In this document: positions 35,129-46,248 of the stretch, one piece after another
Layout: each line of letters opens with the position of its first letter
How positions within the stretch are numbered: position 1 is the stretch's first letter
Assembly: GCA_017642965.1 (NCBI GenBank)
Contig: JAEPOJ010000003.1
Coordinates: forward strand, 62,001 to 126,000
Reading direction: 5' to 3'
DNA: 64,000 nt
DNA from: Phycisphaerales bacterium
GTDB lineage: Bacteria > Planctomycetota > Phycisphaerae > Phycisphaerales > UBA1924
Program-made: the position numbers and the translations under genes
Notes under the pieces: model-generated
What the model was told of the DNA's origin: nothing
Seen by the model: only the letters and a program-made list of their open reading frames with translations
Database searches by the model: none

Positions 35129-35334
35129 ATCACCTAATCCTGTGGGTTTGGGCCCTGAGTGCCAAGGTTATCAGAACTCAATCCCGGACATTCGTTGCAA
35201 CCAGAACTGCAGTATATGAAGAGATGTGGCCAGACTCGACCACTCAGCGATTCGTTCCGATCTGTTGCGAGAGGGCCCGCGTGATTCGGGCCCACCACAT
35301 GGAACTCAATTCTTTCCCAGAGGACTCAACCACC

Positions 35335-38097
35335 ATGAACGCAACACCAACACAGTCTGCACGCGCCCGCATCATGCTCGGGCTCTCCCCCCTCGCGATT
35401 GCGATGGCAGCCGGCCTGACCGGCTGCGGGAGCAGCACCCACCTGACCCGCAGCGGGAACACCGAGCAGTTCACCCCCGAGTACAAGGCATCGCTCGCGA
35501 CGGTCCAGCTCGACGCATCCCGCACGCAGGGCGATTTCACGCCCGGCAGCTACATCACCGAGGGTGGTGAGATCGAACTCCCGCAGCAGTGGGTCTCGGA
35601 AGCACGCGAGGGCAGCGCCGCGATCCAGGCGCAGCGTGCGAACGCCCAGTCGTTCGAAGTCTTCGCGGAATCGCAGTACGTTGAATCGATGGCTGGTGCC
35701 GACGCTGATCTCCAGGACGGCTTCGTTGCCCGCGACACCGGTTACGCCGACGCGGAGCTGACCCGCAGCGTCCACAACGCCAACATCGCCAAGCTCAACA
35801 GCGACATCGATGCCCGCGAGTACGCGGCCGCCTCCAAATGGGAGCGTCAGGAAGCCTTCCTCGTTGCTTCCGTGAAGGAGTGGCAGGCTGAAATCGAGCG
35901 TATGCGTTCGTCGTCTGAGAAGGAATGGTCCTCCGCTCTCGCAGAGCACGACCGCATGATGGCGAGCTACGAGGCCGTTCGCGACCGTGGCCAGGCCGAG
36001 ATCGACTCGATGATCCAGACCGCGGACCTCACCGAGCAGCGCGCGATCCAGAAGGTCCAGTCGCTGCGTGTTCAGGCGAACACCGTTGCCCAGCAGAGCA
36101 ACGCCGAGGTTGCCCAGCTCAACCAGCAGATCCAGACCGTCACCGAGCAGTACAACGCCGAGTACGCCGAGCTGACCCAGCGTGCCCACTCGCTTGATGC
36201 GCAGATGAGCTCGGAAATCGCGACGCTCGACGCCCAGGCGAACCAGTTCAAGGTCGCGGACGCAGACGAAAACTACAAGCTCGAGGTCGAAGCCGCGCAG
36301 GTCACCTTCGAGGCGACCCTTGCCGAGGCAGAGGACATCCGCCTCCAGGCCCAGGAGCAGTCCGCACGCGACCGCGCTCAGTTCTCGAGGCTCAGCGCCG
36401 ACGCTCAGGCGAAGCTCGATACCGCCAAGACCACCTTCACCGAAGCGCAGCAGTGGGTCTCGACCCAGTACGCCAAGTCGATGGCTGATATCCAGAACAA
36501 GCTCGCTCAGGCGGAGCGTCAGGAGCAGGTCGCACGCAGCGCGTACGTCAAGGCCGAGGTCGACGCACGCGTCGCAGCGATGAAGGCCGAGGCAACCCAC
36601 AACAAGGCACTCGCCGAGGCGGAGCTGAACCAGATCCAGTCCGAGGCCGAGTCCGAAGCGAAGCAGCTGCAGGCGAAGTTTGCCAAGGAGTTTGCGGAGC
36701 AGGCACGCAAGGGCAGCTTCGTTGTCCCGAGCAACACCACCGACCGCGAGGAGGGCGTGAACGCTGGTGACAACACCCCCGAGCTCGCAAAGTCGGCCAA
36801 GAAGCCCGTCAATGTTGAGGTCGATCGCATCGCCGCGTTCAAGACCGGGCTCGCGAAGGCCTCGCAGCTTCGCCAGGAGGCGAACGCGGACCGTCTCGAG
36901 GCCGTCGCTCAGCGTGATGCGGAGATGGGCAAGTTCAACGACTGGTTCTCCGGCAAGGAAGCGGACTTCCACGCCACCATGGCCGCGGCTGATGCGTTCC
37001 TACAGAAGTCAAACGCCGAGGTCGATCGCATGTTCGCCAACCGCGACGCGATGATGGCCTCCGCTGAGACCGAGCGCAACCGCGCACTGGTTGACGCCGA
37101 GAGCGGCCGCACCGAGATCCTCGCGACCGTCGAGACCCTGAAGGGCAGCTCGGTCACCATGAGCAAGAAGCGTGACGCGAAGGTCAAGCAGCTCTTCGCT
37201 CAGGCCGAGGCAACCAAGCGTATCGGCGAGTCCAAGGTCGCGTCGCTGAGCGTCCAGCGCGACTCGGCGAAGCGTCGCGGCGAGGCCAAGAGCGCCCAAC
37301 TGCTCGCCGAGGCCAACTCACTCGAGCAGACCCAGCGCGCGGTCGTCGCTCAGATGCGTGAGGAGATCGGCGGCGCACGCCAGATCCTCGACGCGGAGCT
37401 GGCACGCCTGAACCAGGCGGCCCAGAGCTACATGGCGATCGCGAAGGCCAACTTCGACGAGGGCACCGCCATGGCGGACGCGTTCGAGCGAATCGCGGTG
37501 GCCAATACCGCCGAGCTGACCGCACGCCACATCGCGAGCAAGAAGCAGTCGGACGCGGACCTGCAGTACATGACCGCGGTCTCGAACTCCAACGAGTTGC
37601 TGCGTGATGCAGAGGTCCAGCGCATGTTTGCATCCGCGGACGAGCAACTCGGCTATGCCAAGGCTCAGGACATCGCGACCCGTGGTAACATCCAGGCGGA
37701 TTACAACGTCGCGATGGCATCGGCTACCCGCGACTTCACCGTTGCCGACGCTCGTGAGTCGGGCGTCCGCAGCCGATTCGATCACCGCGTCGCAGCGACG
37801 GAGTCGGATCGCAACCGTGCATACGCGGAGCTCTACGCTCAGGCCCAGCAGCAGGCCGCCCGCAACGAGATCGCAGCCGCTCAGGCCGCGACCTACTCGG
37901 AGCAGTCCCTCGCGGCCCTCGAGCGTCTGAACCAGACCTCGAAGACATTCCAGCTCACCGCGCAGCGGAACTGGGACAGCCGTCTTGCGATGCCCTCGAA
38001 CCTCGATAATCCGGCCTCGGTCAACGAGCTCTACGAGCAGACCAAGCCGAGCTTCGAGTTCACCACCTTCACCAGCGTCCCGACCGACACTGAGTGA
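35335..38097 (+). CDS. Giant coiled-coil lipoprotein
   Basis: From the ATG at 35335 the protein has a signal peptide with lipobox GLTGCGSS (lipidated Cys31). After a short N-terminal stretch it is almost wholly helical from about residue 120 to 870, very rich in Ala, Glu, Gln, Lys and Arg with heptad-like hydrophobic spacing. No enzyme or domain motif is recognised, and a short Pro/Thr-rich C-terminus ends in ...SVPTDTE. A frame to 35224 lacks a signal. Such a molecule could span the periplasm as a long rod or form a filament or fibre at the outer membrane; the role is unknown. The 920-residue length is unusual for a lipoprotein. Confidence 0.8.
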   Translation: MNATPTQSARARIMLGLSPLAIAMAAGLTGCGSSTHLTRSGNTEQFTPEYKASLATVQLDASRTQGDFTPGSYITEGGEIELPQQWVSEAREGSAAIQAQRANAQSFEVFAESQYVESMAGADADLQDGFVARDTGYADAELTRSVHNANIAKLNSDIDAREYAAASKWERQEAFLVASVKEWQAEIERMRSSSEKEWSSALAEHDRMMASYEAVRDRGQAEIDSMIQTADLTEQRAIQKVQSLRVQANTVAQQSNAEVAQLNQQIQTVTEQYNAEYAELTQRAHSLDAQMSSEIATLDAQANQFKVADADENYKLEVEAAQVTFEATLAEAEDIRLQAQEQSARDRAQFSRLSADAQAKLDTAKTTFTEAQQWVSTQYAKSMADIQNKLAQAERQEQVARSAYVKAEVDARVAAMKAEATHNKALAEAELNQIQSEAESEAKQLQAKFAKEFAEQARKGSFVVPSNTTDREEGVNAGDNTPELAKSAKKPVNVEVDRIAAFKTGLAKASQLRQEANADRLEAVAQRDAEMGKFNDWFSGKEADFHATMAAADAFLQKSNAEVDRMFANRDAMMASAETERNRALVDAESGRTEILATVETLKGSSVTMSKKRDAKVKQLFAQAEATKRIGESKVASLSVQRDSAKRRGEAKSAQLLAEANSLEQTQRAVVAQMREEIGGARQILDAELARLNQAAQSYMAIAKANFDEGTAMADAFERIAVANTAELTARHIASKKQSDADLQYMTAVSNSNELLRDAEVQRMFASADEQLGYAKAQDIATRGNIQADYNVAMASATRDFTVADARESGVRSRFDHRVAATESDRNRAYAELYAQAQQQAARNEIAAAQAATYSEQSLAALERLNQTSKTFQLTAQRNWDSRLAMPSNLDNPASVNELYEQTKPSFEFTTFTSVPTDTE

Positions 38098-40387: not shown

Positions 40388-40609
40388 GCGATGCTGATGG
40401 GTGGCACACCCCGGAACCCATCTTGCACAGCGGCGGGCACATATACACGACGTGCTGAGTCGATTCATTTCGGGCCTGGGCTCCTCTGAGGGCCAGAATG
40501 GGCACTTGGGGGTTGGCGGAGGCCTGATTTCCGTGCATAATGCGTGAAACCGATCCGAGTCCGTTGCGGATCGGACATCGACGCCGATTCCGGCGGGAGA
40601 GATCCAGAT

Positions 40610-42256
40610 ATGAAGATGACGACCTTCCGGGCCACCGCCCTGATCGCGGCATGTGCCGCCCCGCTTATACACGCTCAGGTCCTGAACTACCCCGAGGATG
40701 CCGAGATCCCCCGCTCGATGACACCGGCGGAAGAGGCGTATACCAAGCTCAACCCGATCCGAGCGATGCAGTCGAGAGGGGCCGCGCCCAGTGGACTGAT
40801 CCGAACGCCGGGGGAGTATGAGCCGGCCGAGGGCATCATCATGGCTTGGGAGGGCTCCGCCTCCTGGAAGTTCATCCTGGCCCAGATGGCCCGCGAGATC
40901 ACAACCACGGGCGACGCCAAGGCGTTTATCTTTGTGGACTCGGCTTCGGAGCTCACCAGCGCGATGAACGATGTAGCCGCGCAGGGCGCGAACATGACCC
41001 GTGTTCAGTTCGAGATCAAACGCACCGACACGATCTGGGCGCGAGACTACGGCCCACGCTATATCTTCCTCGGGTCGCAGCCCGACGGCACCGGCGGCGT
41101 GAGGGCGATGGTCGACCATACATACAACCGTCCGCGGCCGAACGACAACTCGCTGCCCTCGTACTGGGCCAGCGAACGCGGCGAGCCCTACTTCCTCATC
41201 CCCCTCGTGCATGGCGGTGGCAACTACCACCTCGAAAGCGGCAACCCCGCAGGTGTCGGGCATGCAACCCGCCTGATCAACAACGAGAACCCCGGGCTGA
41301 CCGAGGCGGAGATCATCCAGCTCTGGCAGGATTACCAGAACCTGACCACCACGATGTACACCCCATACCCGTCGTTCGTAGACAGCACGCAGCACATCGA
41401 CATGTGGATGATCGTGCTTGACGATGACAAGGTGATGATCTCCGAGTGGGTCAACGAGCCGAACGCCTCGTGGGCCATCACCTCCGACAACGCCGCGGCA
41501 GACTTCGCCGCACGCGGATTCCAGGTGTACCGAGTCCCCGCTGTACGCTCCGGCGGGACCCACTACACATACACAAACGCTGTGATCTGCAACGATCTGG
41601 TGTTGGTGCCGATGTACACCAACGGCACTGCTTCCCAGTTCAACGATGATGCCCTCGCTGTATGGCAGAACGCGTATCCCGAGAAGACGATCGTGCAGAT
41701 TAACTGCCAGGCGCTGGTGACCTCGGCGGGTGTGATGCACTGCATTGTCAAGCATGTCCCTGCCCCTGCCAACGGTGAGGCACCGGGCGTGTACATGACC
41801 AGCCAGAACAATGCGCCCGAGATTGATCCGGGCGAGCTTGTGCAGACCACGTGGCTCTTTGATTCCCCCGAGGGCGTAACGACTGCCGACCTGCTTCTGT
41901 CAACCGACGGTGGTTTGACGTACCCCACGGTCGTCGGTTCTGGCTTTGATGCATCCCCGGGCTCGTACTACTGGACTGCACCCGATGTGGGCACCAGTGA
42001 CGCACGCCTGCGTCTGGTCATCCGTGACCCGGATGGCAACGAGTCGTTCGACGACTCTGATGTGTCCTTCACAATCACCGGCACATCGTGTGCTGCGGAC
42101 CTCACGGGCGACGGGATGTTGGACTTCTTTGACGTGTCCGCGTTCCTCAACGCATACACGGCGATGGATCCGCTCGCTGACTTCACAGACGATGGCGTGT
42201 ACGACTTCTTCGACGTGAGCGCGTTCCTGAATGCGTATAACGTCGGGTGCCCTTGA
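40610..42256 (+). CDS. Secreted agmatine/peptidyl-arginine deiminase family protein with two C-terminal dockerin-like repeats
   Basis: The 548-residue protein has a signal peptide (residues 1-20, ending in LIHAQ) and a guanidine-group-modifying domain (about 40-385). Its active-site pattern is IWARDYGP (substrate Asp), QHIDMW (catalytic His) and GVMHC (nucleophilic Cys). Enzymes of this family deiminate agmatine or peptidyl-arginine to the ureido product and ammonia. The domain is followed by a beta-sandwich-like linker, and residues 493-548 form two calcium-binding dockerin-like repeats (DLTGDGMLDFFDVSAFLNAY and DDGVYDFFDVSAFLNAY) bracketed by cysteines, a planctomycete GC-type dockerin. The tail suggests anchoring at the cell surface. 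Substrate is uncertain. Confidence 0.87.
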   Translation: MKMTTFRATALIAACAAPLIHAQVLNYPEDAEIPRSMTPAEEAYTKLNPIRAMQSRGAAPSGLIRTPGEYEPAEGIIMAWEGSASWKFILAQMAREITTTGDAKAFIFVDSASELTSAMNDVAAQGANMTRVQFEIKRTDTIWARDYGPRYIFLGSQPDGTGGVRAMVDHTYNRPRPNDNSLPSYWASERGEPYFLIPLVHGGGNYHLESGNPAGVGHATRLINNENPGLTEAEIIQLWQDYQNLTTTMYTPYPSFVDSTQHIDMWMIVLDDDKVMISEWVNEPNASWAITSDNAAADFAARGFQVYRVPAVRSGGTHYTYTNAVICNDLVLVPMYTNGTASQFNDDALAVWQNAYPEKTIVQINCQALVTSAGVMHCIVKHVPAPANGEAPGVYMTSQNNAPEIDPGELVQTTWLFDSPEGVTTADLLLSTDGGLTYPTVVGSGFDASPGSYYWTAPDVGTSDARLRLVIRDPDGNESFDDSDVSFTITGTSCAADLTGDGMLDFFDVSAFLNAYTAMDPLADFTDDGVYDFFDVSAFLNAYNVGCP

Positions 42257-42374: not shown

Positions 42375-43571
42375 TCAGCACATCTCAATACACATGGCCA
42401 CCGCGTTGCCGCCGCCGAGGCAGAGGGCGGCGAGGCCCTTCTTGCCGCCGGTACGCTTGAGCTGGTGGATCAGTGTGACGAGCACGCGTGCACCCGAGGC
42501 CCCGATCGGGTGGCCAAGGGCGACGCCGCCGCCGCAGATGTTGGTCTTCGATTCGTCGATCTGGAGTTCCTTGATGTTGCACAGTGCCTGAGCGGCGAAG
42601 GCCTCGTTGATCTCGAAGAGATCGACATCGTCGCCGGTCCAGCCGGCCTTCTCGAGTGCCCCACGGATACCCTCGATCGGGGCCGCGAAGATGTCCTTGG
42701 GATCTACGCCTGAGGTGTGGTAGGACACGATCTTGCACAGCGGTTCGAGTCCGGCCTCCTTGGCCTTTGCCTCGCTCATCACGATCGTGGCGGCCGCGCC
42801 GTCGGAGATCTGCGATGCGTTGCCGGCGGTGACGCTACCGTCTTTGGAGAACGCGGGGCGGAGCTTGCCGAGCCCCTCTGCGGTCGAGTCGCCGCGGATG
42901 CCCTCGTCGCGCTGGATACCACCCTCCGGGCCGGGGACCTTGCGGTTGCCCAGCTGCTCACCGGTGAGGGTAACGACCTCGCTGTCGAAGTGACCAGCAT
43001 CCCACGCCGCCTGTGCGCGGACATGGCTCTGGGCACCGAAGCGGTCCTGATCCTCGCGAGAGACACCGTACTTGTCGGCGATATGCTCGGCGGCGTTGCC
43101 CATCGGCCAGCACTCGAAGGCGCAGCGCAGCCCGTCGTAGGCCATGTGGTCTTCCATTGTGCCCGGGCCGTACTTCACACCCTGACGGACATGGGCGAAG
43201 TGTGGCGCAGCGGTCATGTTCTCCATGCCGCCCGCGATCACACAGTGGTTGTCGCCGGCCTTGATGGACTGGGCAGCCATCATGACCGCCTCCAGGCCGG
43301 AGCCGCACACTTTGTTGATGGTCTTGGCCGAGAGGGTGGTAGGCATGCCGGCCTTAAGCGCGGCCTGACGGGCTGGGTTCTGACCCAACCCGGCCTGGAG
43401 CACGCAGCCCATCACGCACTCATCCACGTGGTCCTTGGCTGCAGCCGCTTCACCCAGGGCGGCCTCGATGGCGAAAGCACCGATCTGCGGCGAGGGGACG
43501 CGGGAAAATGCCCCAAAGAACTTACCGATGGGTGTTCGTTTGGCGGCAACTATCACGGGCTGGTTCGACAT
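42375..43571 (-). CDS. Acetyl-CoA C-acyltransferase (thiolase)
   Basis: The 398-residue protein starts [16 protein letters not shown] after an ATG at 43571 and matches the thiolase family. The acylated Cys lies in [11 protein letters not shown], the [10 protein letters not shown] histidine segment and [11 protein letters not shown]-terminal cysteine are present. Thiolases cleave or form acetoacetyl-CoA/3-oxoacyl-CoA. The neighbouring acyl-CoA genes lie several kb away, so it may serve fatty acid or amino acid degradation, or acetoacetyl-CoA synthesis. Substrate chain length is not deducible from motifs. Confidence 0.93.
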
Positions 43572-43815
43572 GGTCGCTCCTGTTTGGTGAGAATCGTGGT
43601 GTCCCTGCGGGGTGGAGATGATAGGACCAAACCAGCCGAATACCCAACCTATTTCATGACCTCCTGTCCTCACACGTACACGGAAATACCGCAGTATGAG
43701 CTGCGAAAGCACTTTTGTCGTTGTGGTTTTGCGGCCATTCCCTTAGGATGACGACAACTGGCTCTCATGTGTTTTTGAGCCGTTTGACGCATAGTGACAT
43801 TGGGGACATCCATCC

Positions 43816-45402
43816 ATGAGTATTCGTTCCACCATCGCAGCCGCGATCGTTGCGGCTTGCACCATCGCTGTATCCACACCTGCGATCGCTTCACCGACCG
43901 CGTTCACCTATCAGGGCCATCTCGCACAAGACGGCCAGCTTGCGGATGGCGTGTTTGAGTTCCAGATCCGACTGCTCGATGAGCTTGGCACTCAGATCGG
44001 CACCACCCAGTTCGCGAATGTCGTCGTTACGGGCGGCGCGTTCACGATGGAGATCGATTTCGGAGCATCGGCATTTGACGGGAACGACCGGTTCCTCGAA
44101 CTCGCTGTCCGCTCACTCGACGATGGCGGCGCGTACACCACGCTCACCCCCAACCAGCGCGTCACCTCAGCCCCCGTCGCCCAGTTCGCGCTCGCTGGCA
44201 ACGAAGGACCACAGGGGCCACAAGGCCCCCAGGGCGAACCCGGTGAGAATGGCAGTGATGGTGCCCCCGGCACTGACGGGCAGGACGGTGCCCAAGGCCC
44301 AGAGGGACCGCGAGGCCCGCAGGGCATCCAGGGGCCGCAGGGCGAACCAGGTCCCCAGGGAGCCCGGGGACCAGCGGGCGATTCGCACTGGTCGATCTTC
44401 GGCACCAATACTGGCTACACAGCCGGTAATGTCGGTATCGGGACGAACAACCCGTCCGACAGACTCCAGATCATCTCTTCCGCTGGCGAAAGCCCCCTTC
44501 GAGTTCTGCACAACGGGCAGACCCGACTCCGCGTCAACGCGAACGGCGGCATCGCGCTCGGGAGTGACAGCACCGCCGTAGATGCGGGCGATGTCTACGT
44601 TCATAGCAGCATGGGTTTGGGGACTTCATCGCCAACCGACAGACTTCACATCACTGTGCCCGATGGTGAGAGCGCCTTTCGAGTGCAGCACGATGGCCTC
44701 ACCCGCATCCGCGTCAACGCTAATGGCGGGGTTTCTCTTGGCGGCAACTCCACCATCGTCGCTGCCGGAGACACCTACGTCGCGGGCAGGCTGGGGGTTG
44801 GTGAGAACCAGCCCACCGCGAGACTCACCGTGGACTCTGACTCGGGCGAATGGCCACTCTCGGTACGCGCTGACGGCGACCTCGCCATGATCGTCGAAGA
44901 GAACGGAAACGTTGAAATCCTGACGAGTCTCTCGATTGGTACCAACTCACTCGTCCATAGCTTCGATCTCGCGGTCGACGGTCTTGCGGCGAAACCGGGC
45001 GGCGGTGGATGGTCTGTCTTCTCCGATCAGCGCCTCAAGAAGAACATCACCCCGATGTTCGGCTCGCTCGACACGATCGCCGCGCTCCGCCCCGTCAACT
45101 TCGAGTACACCGACAAGAACCACTTCTCCTATGTCGAAGGCGTCCAGCACGGTTTTATCGCGCAGGAAGTCCAGCAGGTCATGCCTCAGTGGGTTCGGGA
45201 GAACACAGACGGCTACCTCTATCTCAATCAGATCGGGTTCGAAGCATTGGTTGTAGATGCGATCCAGGAACTGCGAGCCGAGAACGCGAAACAGATCCAG
45301 TCGCTGCAGGACCAGAACGCCCGCCAGCAACGCGAGATCGAAGAGATGCGAGCCTTGATGAGCGAGATGATGCGTCAACTCGAGCAGCAGTACCACGATT
45401 GA
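43816..45402 (+). CDS. Exported collagen-like protein with C-terminal S74 intramolecular chaperone domain
   Basis: The 528-residue protein has a signal peptide (about 1-26) and an N-terminal beta domain (about 30-127). It then has 21 uninterrupted Gly-X-Y triplets (128-190, many GPQ) and two similar 65-residue beta-type repeats (about 205-340, each with R-L-R-V-N-A-N-G-G). The C-terminal S74 domain (403-528) begins SDQRLKKNI and ends in a coiled coil. In phage tailspikes this domain promotes trimer folding and cleaves itself before the SD serine. A trimeric surface fibre is expected. The ATG at 43816 begins the signal sequence; the gene is divergent from the thiolase. Confidence 0.88.
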   Translation: MSIRSTIAAAIVAACTIAVSTPAIASPTAFTYQGHLAQDGQLADGVFEFQIRLLDELGTQIGTTQFANVVVTGGAFTMEIDFGASAFDGNDRFLELAVRSLDDGGAYTTLTPNQRVTSAPVAQFALAGNEGPQGPQGPQGEPGENGSDGAPGTDGQDGAQGPEGPRGPQGIQGPQGEPGPQGARGPAGDSHWSIFGTNTGYTAGNVGIGTNNPSDRLQIISSAGESPLRVLHNGQTRLRVNANGGIALGSDSTAVDAGDVYVHSSMGLGTSSPTDRLHITVPDGESAFRVQHDGLTRIRVNANGGVSLGGNSTIVAAGDTYVAGRLGVGENQPTARLTVDSDSGEWPLSVRADGDLAMIVEENGNVEILTSLSIGTNSLVHSFDLAVDGLAAKPGGGGWSVFSDQRLKKNITPMFGSLDTIAALRPVNFEYTDKNHFSYVEGVQHGFIAQEVQQVMPQWVRENTDGYLYLNQIGFEALVVDAIQELRAENAKQIQSLQDQNARQQREIEEMRALMSEMMRQLEQQYHD

Positions 45403-45431: not shown

Positions 45432-45462
45432 AACATCCCCCGTCCAGCCGGGGGATGTTTTT
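45432..45462 (+). terminator. Intrinsic terminator after the collagen-like gene
   Basis: ACATCCCCCG and CGGGGGATGT form a 10-base stem around TCCAGC, followed by TTTTTC. Confidence 0.85.
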
Positions 45463-45486: not shown

Positions 45487-46248
45487 GTGCCGGAGCCCAA
45501 CCTCAAACCCACACTCCCCCTCCGCCTCTGGCTCATCTCCGAGTTCATCGTGCTCTATGTCCTCATCCCACCGCTCGTCGCCGGGCTGATCCAGCCGCAT
45601 CTCGGCGACAACGTCCTGCGGCGCGTTGGTATCACGGCCTGGTCCTTTGATGTCGGACTTCCGCGCTGGATCTTTGTCTTTCCGCTTCTCATACTCACCT
45701 TCGTCAGCATGCTGATCTTCCTGCTGCTCGATAAGTCCTTCGAGAACAGGAAGCTCTGGGGCTGGTCGCGATTCCGGGGCGATTTCAAGCGGATCATCAC
45801 TCGGTTTGTCTGGCTCGCCTCGGCGATCCTCGTGCTCACTTGGCTGCTCGCCCGCTACACCGACATCATGCCGATGGAGCGGTTCCTCTTCCTCCCCACA
45901 CATGTGCCGTGGCTGATGCTGACGATCTCGCTGCTTTACCCTTGGCTTAGCGCCTACCCGCAGGAGATCACCCACCGGGCGTTTTTCTTCCACCGCTACC
46001 GCACGATCATTGGGGAGGGGCGGCTCGCCTTTGTGCTCAATGTCGTCACCTTCTCTTGGCTGCACGTCACGATGTGGAACTGGGTCGCGATCATCATGAC
46101 CATCCCAGCGGGGATCCTGTTCGCGCAGACATACCGCAAGAGCGACTCCGCCCTGGCCGCGGGCTTTGAGCATGCGATCTATGGGATCTGGGTGTTCTTC
46201 GTGGGGTTGGGGTACTTCGTGTTCACGGGGAATGCCAATGTGGGCTGA
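45487..46248 (+). CDS. CPBP-type intramembrane protease family protein with variant active-site motif
   Basis: The 253-residue protein has six to seven membrane segments. The CPBP/Abi region shows QEITHRAFF (family norm EExxxR), FSWLHV (FxxxH) and FEHAIYG (late His). The first glutamate of the motif is replaced by Gln, so catalysis by the usual pair is uncertain. The frame starts with GTG at 45487 without a convincing ribosome binding site; an internal start is possible. CPBP proteins cleave membrane-bound substrates or act as bacteriocin immunity proteins, but the partner here is unknown. It lies right behind a terminator, so has its own promoter. Confidence 0.72.
   Translation: MPEPNLKPTLPLRLWLISEFIVLYVLIPPLVAGLIQPHLGDNVLRRVGITAWSFDVGLPRWIFVFPLLILTFVSMLIFLLLDKSFENRKLWGWSRFRGDFKRIITRFVWLASAILVLTWLLARYTDIMPMERFLFLPTHVPWLMLTISLLYPWLSAYPQEITHRAFFFHRYRTIIGEGRLAFVLNVVTFSWLHVTMWNWVAIIMTIPAGILFAQTYRKSDSALAAGFEHAIYGIWVFFVGLGYFVFTGNANVG

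Follow-up and report, generated by a model that had tools for sequence, protein, structure and literature searches.

A probable secreted, collagen-stalked fibre protein of a Phycisphaerales bacterium related to the mosaic adhesive trimers of Bdellovibrio, with a predicted self-cleaving S74 domain

A 64,000-nucleotide stretch of a Phycisphaerales genome (hereafter the window) carries a fibre gene whose 528-residue product is, with a probability of roughly 0.7, a secreted homotrimeric adhesin with a collagen stalk that is folded by its S74 domain and then cuts itself. The open reading frame occupies positions 43816-45402 of the plus strand. Its product contains, in order, a signal peptide, an N-terminal β-sandwich domain (NTD), a collagen stalk, three 60-residue repeats, a GGG-W motif, a Peptidase_S74 domain and a coiled coil. 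The closest described system is the mosaic adhesive trimer (MAT) fibre of Bdellovibrio, reported in 2024 (PMC10769870). The sequence-only reading that preceded this analysis is partly supported: it holds in its main point, that of a bacterial fibre, but it contained neither the signal peptide, the NTD and the C-terminal coiled coil nor the decisive comparison with MATs. The MAT plan is already known, and on sequence grounds the fibre appears to be a further variant of it with a collagen stalk, and thus less of an orphan than had been implied.

The protein begins with a predicted Sec signal peptide (43816..43890, plus strand; residues 1–25), which as read from the sequence ends in A-I-A and has no lipobox cysteine; N-termini of the same type are present in relatives. 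The NTD that follows (43891..44196, plus strand; about residues 26–127, ∼100 residues) matches no Pfam family. Against the NCBIfam model NF053851 (Bdello_MAT_N) the fibre protein scores 13.6 bits (E = 0.042) where the cut-off is 60, and it is therefore filed as MAT-like rather than as a member of the MAT subfamily. The same model matched none of 41 related genomes at E = 0.01, in a search in which no control genome matched, whereas 43 of 144 Bdellovibrionota genomes were matched at 1e-3, 38 of them above the cut-off and with up to 23 copies per genome. The relationship was found only by HMM-HMM comparison, for which loci from the 144 Bdellovibrionota genomes were used. Aligned in this way, 49 NTDs of relatives and 18 Bdellovibrionota MAT domains gave a probability of 98.0 (E = 2.2e-13), a partly circular result in that the 18 rows had been chosen by an FTYQG-like regular expression. 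Repeating the hhalign comparison with 25 MAT rows picked by match position gave 98.1 (E = 1.2e-13); these were the usable rows from 30 MAT loci, the other five being cut short and yielding no residues or fewer than 20. Removal of the FTYQG motif left a probability of 96.4 (E = 1.4e-9). The real profile scored 82.8, compared with 8.6–14.9 for 20 column-shuffled profiles (E = 0.13–0.83), 14.1 for the reversed profile and 12.5 for an S74 profile. By these profile comparisons the NTD is judged homologous to the MAT N-terminal domain, but of another subfamily.

A model of the isolated NTD folds as a six-strand β-sandwich with a mean pLDDT of 86.3. When this model was searched against the PDB, only generic Ig/FN3-like sandwiches were retrieved, the best VIA Z being 7.8, and no Foldseek match reached E ≤0.001. 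The MAT N-terminal domain is likewise described as having no structural homologue in the PDB (PMC10769870). The full-length monomer model is poor across the stalk and repeats (mean pLDDT 56.5), with the stalk part unusable; it too gave no Foldseek match in the PDB at E = 0.001, and no S74 structure appeared among the PDB matches listed for it. The S74 assignment below is accordingly made from sequence, since the poor full-length model and the lack of a Foldseek match leave the fold without structural confirmation here.

The resemblance to MATs extends beyond the NTD. As in the S74 subgroup of MATs, of which Bd3182 is an example, a signal peptide is followed by a homologous β-rich NTD, by repeats with G..P...L loops and by a terminal S74 domain with SDxxxK (PMC10769870). 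The spacing of the loop motif in the fibre repeats differs somewhat from the published consensus. The window genome (3.45 Mb, 82 contigs) encodes six NTD proteins, two with S74 and four with other tips, and several NTD proteins show different C-terminal tips on inspection of their sequences. Among ten NTD proteins from this genome and relatives scanned with Pfam, nine had no family and one had collagen plus S74. Several paralogues with swapped tips per genome are also a feature of MATs, and the six paralogues reproduce the mosaic of S74 and non-S74 members seen in Bdellovibrio, where 13 and 8, respectively, are described (PMC10769870). Two NTD proteins of the same genome (L077 on contig C8, L078 on contig C5) have a common other tip (FKIDHPLDP...YLSHSFVESPDM...) and no Pfam family. 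There are also differences from MATs. The fibre has a 21-triplet collagen stalk, whereas the word collagen does not occur in the main text of the MAT paper (PMC10769870); it is 528 residues long rather than the typical MAT length of about 1,000; it falls below the NF053851 cut-off; and its host is not known as a predator.

The collagen-like stalk (44197..44385, plus strand; residues 128–190) consists of 21 consecutive, uninterrupted Gly-X-Y triplets, the number given in the sequence-only reading, while 2000 residue shuffles reach at most six. Proline occupies X in 9 of the 21 triplets and Y in 3, and Pfam Collagen (PF01391) matches the protein at 40 bits against a cut-off of 27.2 (E = 3.3e-10). 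The Gly-X-Y region also matches the collagen-like adhesins SclB, SclA and Lcl, but the scores are far under the respective NCBIfam cut-offs (42.2 vs 325, 36.1 vs 400 and 40.8 vs 500) and no wall anchor was seen. Downstream lie three 60-residue repeats starting at residues 206, 266 and 326 (44431..44610, VGIGTNNPSDRL...; 44611..44790, MGLGTSSPTDRL...; 44791..44970, LGVGENQPTARL...; all plus strand), of which the first is probably a triple β-helix unit. Units 1 and 2 have the same residue at 34 of 60 positions, and the more diverged unit 3 agrees with them at 16–17 of 60. All three score far above 500 shuffles, which bears out the tandem β repeats proposed earlier. The repeats are visible at the protein level only, a tandem-repeat search of the gene's DNA having found none.

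The terminal S74 domain with its SDQRLK start, also proposed earlier, is well founded. Pfam Peptidase_S74 (PF13884) matches at 56.8 bits against a cut-off of 22 (E = 2.8e-15), and the domain (45022..45195, plus strand; residues 403–460) opens with SDQRLK at residues 403–408. The residues on which cleavage would depend are present: S, D, R and K of the motif are all kept, and the Ser-Lys dyad corresponds to S403 (codon 45022-45024) and K408 (45037-45039). In the genus, Ser with Lys at +5 occurs in all 23 Pfam S74 matches, SD in 20 and SDxRxK in 18, although the Pfam model spans the Ser-Lys motif and biases its matches towards it. Directly before the predicted cleavage site is an AxKxGGGxW motif (44986..45012, plus strand), whose A, K, three G and W do not vary across all 18 rows of an alignment of relatives; the invariance of S, D, R and K in that alignment is circular because its rows were chosen by SDxRxK. 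The domain is followed by a C-terminal helix, probably a coiled coil (45229..45396, plus strand; residues 472–527), modeled as helix with block pLDDT values of 76–92 from residue 481.

The spacing of S403 and K408 equals that of the dyads of MyRF, endoNF and T5 pb1, from which a cut of the fibre's own chain at F402|S403 is predicted. In MyRF the cut falls between P586 and S587, and both S587 and K592 are required; their counterparts in endoNF, the K1F phage endosialidase, are S911 and K916. Phage T5 pb1 uses S1264 and K1269 (PMC8326128, PMC4690869). In Bdellovibrio Bd3182 the S74 cut is at S782, and S782A abolishes it (PMC10769870). The phage proteins T5 pb1 and endoNF thus have in common with the fibre an S74 chaperone in which Lys lies five residues after Ser, but differ in that the NTD was not found in the viral S74 ORFs tested and in that no virion genes lie near the fibre gene. 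The MyRF autocleavage domain (PDB 7dc3) gives a weak sequence match (E = 0.045) and shares the Ser-Lys dyad, and trimerisation of MyRF is driven by its C-terminal coiled coil; MyRF is, however, an animal membrane-bound transcription factor. Altered S74 motifs, SSRTLK, SDRDAK and SSRRYK, occur at loci L059 (7237-8712), L071 (1-1086), L019 and L022, with Ser and Lys still five residues apart.

These features can be joined into a working model. The chain would be exported by Sec, after which the C-terminal S74 domain and coiled coil would unite three chains and wind the β-helix repeats, and the winding of the repeats would fix the register of the collagen stalk. Once the correct trimer has formed, the Ser403-Lys408 dyad would cut before Ser403, freeing a 126-residue chaperone and uncovering the tip. 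The mature fibre (residues 26–402) may then be held on the cell by the N-terminal β-sandwich, with the collagen rod, about 18 nm long at the textbook rise per residue, keeping the tip at a distance from the cell. The exposed repeat region might bind a ligand, perhaps a glycan.

The fibre gene lies among metabolic genes. To its left is a thiolase gene (42375..43712, minus strand; true start probably near 43570) and to its right a gene for a CAAX/Rce1-like membrane protease (45487..46248, plus strand). On the 3' side of the fibre gene is a hairpin that, with the T run behind it, resembles a terminator (45441..45457, plus strand); it is weak evidence alone because three such sites occur in 2.1 kb where 1.2 are expected. 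Pfam assigns the ten nearby genes to RecA, peptidyl-arginine deiminase (PAD)-like, thiolase, CAAX-type protease, PrpD, DUF2231, carboxypeptidase and acyl-CoA carboxyltransferase, leaving two without a family. Nineteen of 20 further window genes have families, mostly of fatty-acid, amino-acid and housekeeping functions, and one has no match; one of the 19, a short coiled-coil protein, has below-cut-off matches only, including one to a phage scaffold model. A relative of the CAAX-protease gene is present in 8 of 21 genomes of the genus, the window's own included. Of the other seven genomes, five (G002, G004, G008, G009 and G019) have it directly beside the thiolase gene, with only a short intergenic stretch between the two and the fibre gene missing; as for the remaining two, the stretch fetched from G014 contains no thiolase, and that from G001 ends at a contig edge. 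Because the flanking genes adjoin in these five congeners, the fibre gene is best described as a one-gene insertion between housekeeping genes. An unsystematic look at the insertion borders revealed no duplication or mobile element. A tblastn comparison of the ten neighbour proteins with 17 S74 fibre loci of relatives found no shared neighbourhood, and only the short C-terminal module of the PAD-like protein matched. This secreted protein (40544-42256) ends in a TGDG...FFDVSAFLNAY module that recurs in 5 of the 17 loci. Beside recA is a 957-residue Ala/Gln-rich ORF (35224-38097), probably a coiled coil, with no Pfam family or PHROG match.

A one-gene insertion that five congeners lack at this site could also be a tail-fibre gene, either the remnant of a decayed prophage or a recent acquisition from a phage. 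PHROG tail-fibre families do match three parts of the protein (collagen, repeats and S74), and 556 of 50,697 phage records match it by tblastn. None of the 556, however, covers 80% of the query, and the 30 phage matches listed all begin at residue 192 or later. The NTD occurs in 34 of the 70 S74 ORFs from named bacterial loci and in 0 of 80 viral ones (73 loci), and the same genome has NTD paralogues with other tips. At 1e-5 none of the ten neighbours matches a PHROG, and no phage gene, tail genes included, was found among the 30 window genes scanned with Pfam on this 157-kb contig, in agreement with the earlier statement that the gene has no phage neighbours. A tree was built from 122 columns of 121 S74 domains, of which 53 are viral, 67 are bacterial and one is that of the window. 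In it the window's domain falls in a starred, well-supported group of 34 rows, the other 33 of which are all bacterial and mostly from Planctomycetota, and the virus/bacterium label changes 5 times over the tree compared with 39.5 times when shuffled. A phage remnant is thus very improbable. The earlier suggestion that the fibre was built on a phage design is not established by this tree, from which, with 122 columns and many open forks, the direction of S74 transfer between phages and bacteria is not readable.

It is hardly credible that the protein is the fibre of an extracellular contractile injection system encoded by this bacterium: its Sec-type signal ought to be superfluous in a fibre put together in the cytoplasm, and Phage_sheath_1 finds no match anywhere in the genome, which is about 92% complete, whereas three control genomes match. 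Such systems do employ phage-like fibres (PMC12923769). A secreted trimer whose S74 domain is a mere folding clamp, or which is a structural element of the matrix or cell envelope rather than an adhesin, is a less remote alternative but still an unlikely one. The adhesin role is a prediction, the collagen rod may have no other than a structural function, and some S74 domains of the genus lack the Asp (SSRTLK, SSRRYK); on the other hand, the window protein retains S, D, R and K, and the related Bdellovibrio fibres work in prey handling, some of them binding sugars (PMC10769870). Because its base domain matches that of the Bdellovibrio prey-gripping fibres, the protein is most likely a bacterial surface adhesin and not a phage remnant, consistent with the bacterial surface fibre of the sequence-only reading.

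The analysis connects an NTD that is widespread in fibre proteins of bacteria, but has no name, with the domain at the base of the prey-recognition fibres of Bdellovibrio. Planctomycetes share the mosaic plan, which yields a set of candidates for their surface fibres, structures of which few proteins are known; with its 528 residues, the protein is also a small system in which the assembly of a bacterial collagen by S74 could be tested. The docking partner of the MAT base domain is left open in the MAT paper (PMC10769870); if the domain has a common partner, comparison of Bdellovibrio with these genomes could help to find it. A bolder and quite tentative idea, against which the odds lean, is that the MAT-type base, collagen and S74 of Phycisphaerales make up a set of interchangeable surface fibres, each encoded by one gene, in hosts not known as predators, with S74 acting like the C-propeptide of animal procollagen in that it would trimerise the chains, register the collagen from the C-terminal end and remove itself. 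In open-licence PMC text, no paper was found joining S74, planctomycetes and tail fiber, or 'tail fiber domain-containing protein' with collagen; peptidase S74 with collagen retrieved only enterococcal proteomics and Acinetobacter phage fibres, and endosialidase with planctomycetes only apparently unrelated matches.

The closest S74 relatives found in named records are from Phycisphaerales MAGs. The NTD together with at least eight triplets is present in 14 of the 70 bacterial S74 ORFs, of which 13 belong to Planctomycetota and the other to a Lysobacteraceae MAG, and at least eight triplets occur in 4 of the 80 viral S74 ORFs, in a sample that is not random because the loci were found with S74 patterns from the window's genus. 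The 13 planctomycete ORFs, from Phycisphaerales and other Planctomycetota MAGs, have the full plan of NTD, collagen and S74, but with 10–26 triplets and with other repeats than the window fibre between collagen and S74. S74 is found in 12 of 21 genomes of the genus. Across a phylum sample of 149 genomes, S74 occurs in 19 and the NTD in 18, and both are therefore scattered in the phylum. In three congeners a collagen S74 fibre gene is directly followed by a second, shorter S74 gene (L061, 6149-8329 and 8412-9791; L062, 10279-12549 and 8893-10242; L063, 10021-12258 and 12349-13710), which encodes a collagen-free protein of ∼450 residues with SDxR[HQ]K. The fibre gene of the window stands without a partner of this kind. 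The genome of one congener (G017, contig C11, 136997-166832; L058 and L059) carries four S74 fibre genes within ∼30 kb, an apparent hot spot.
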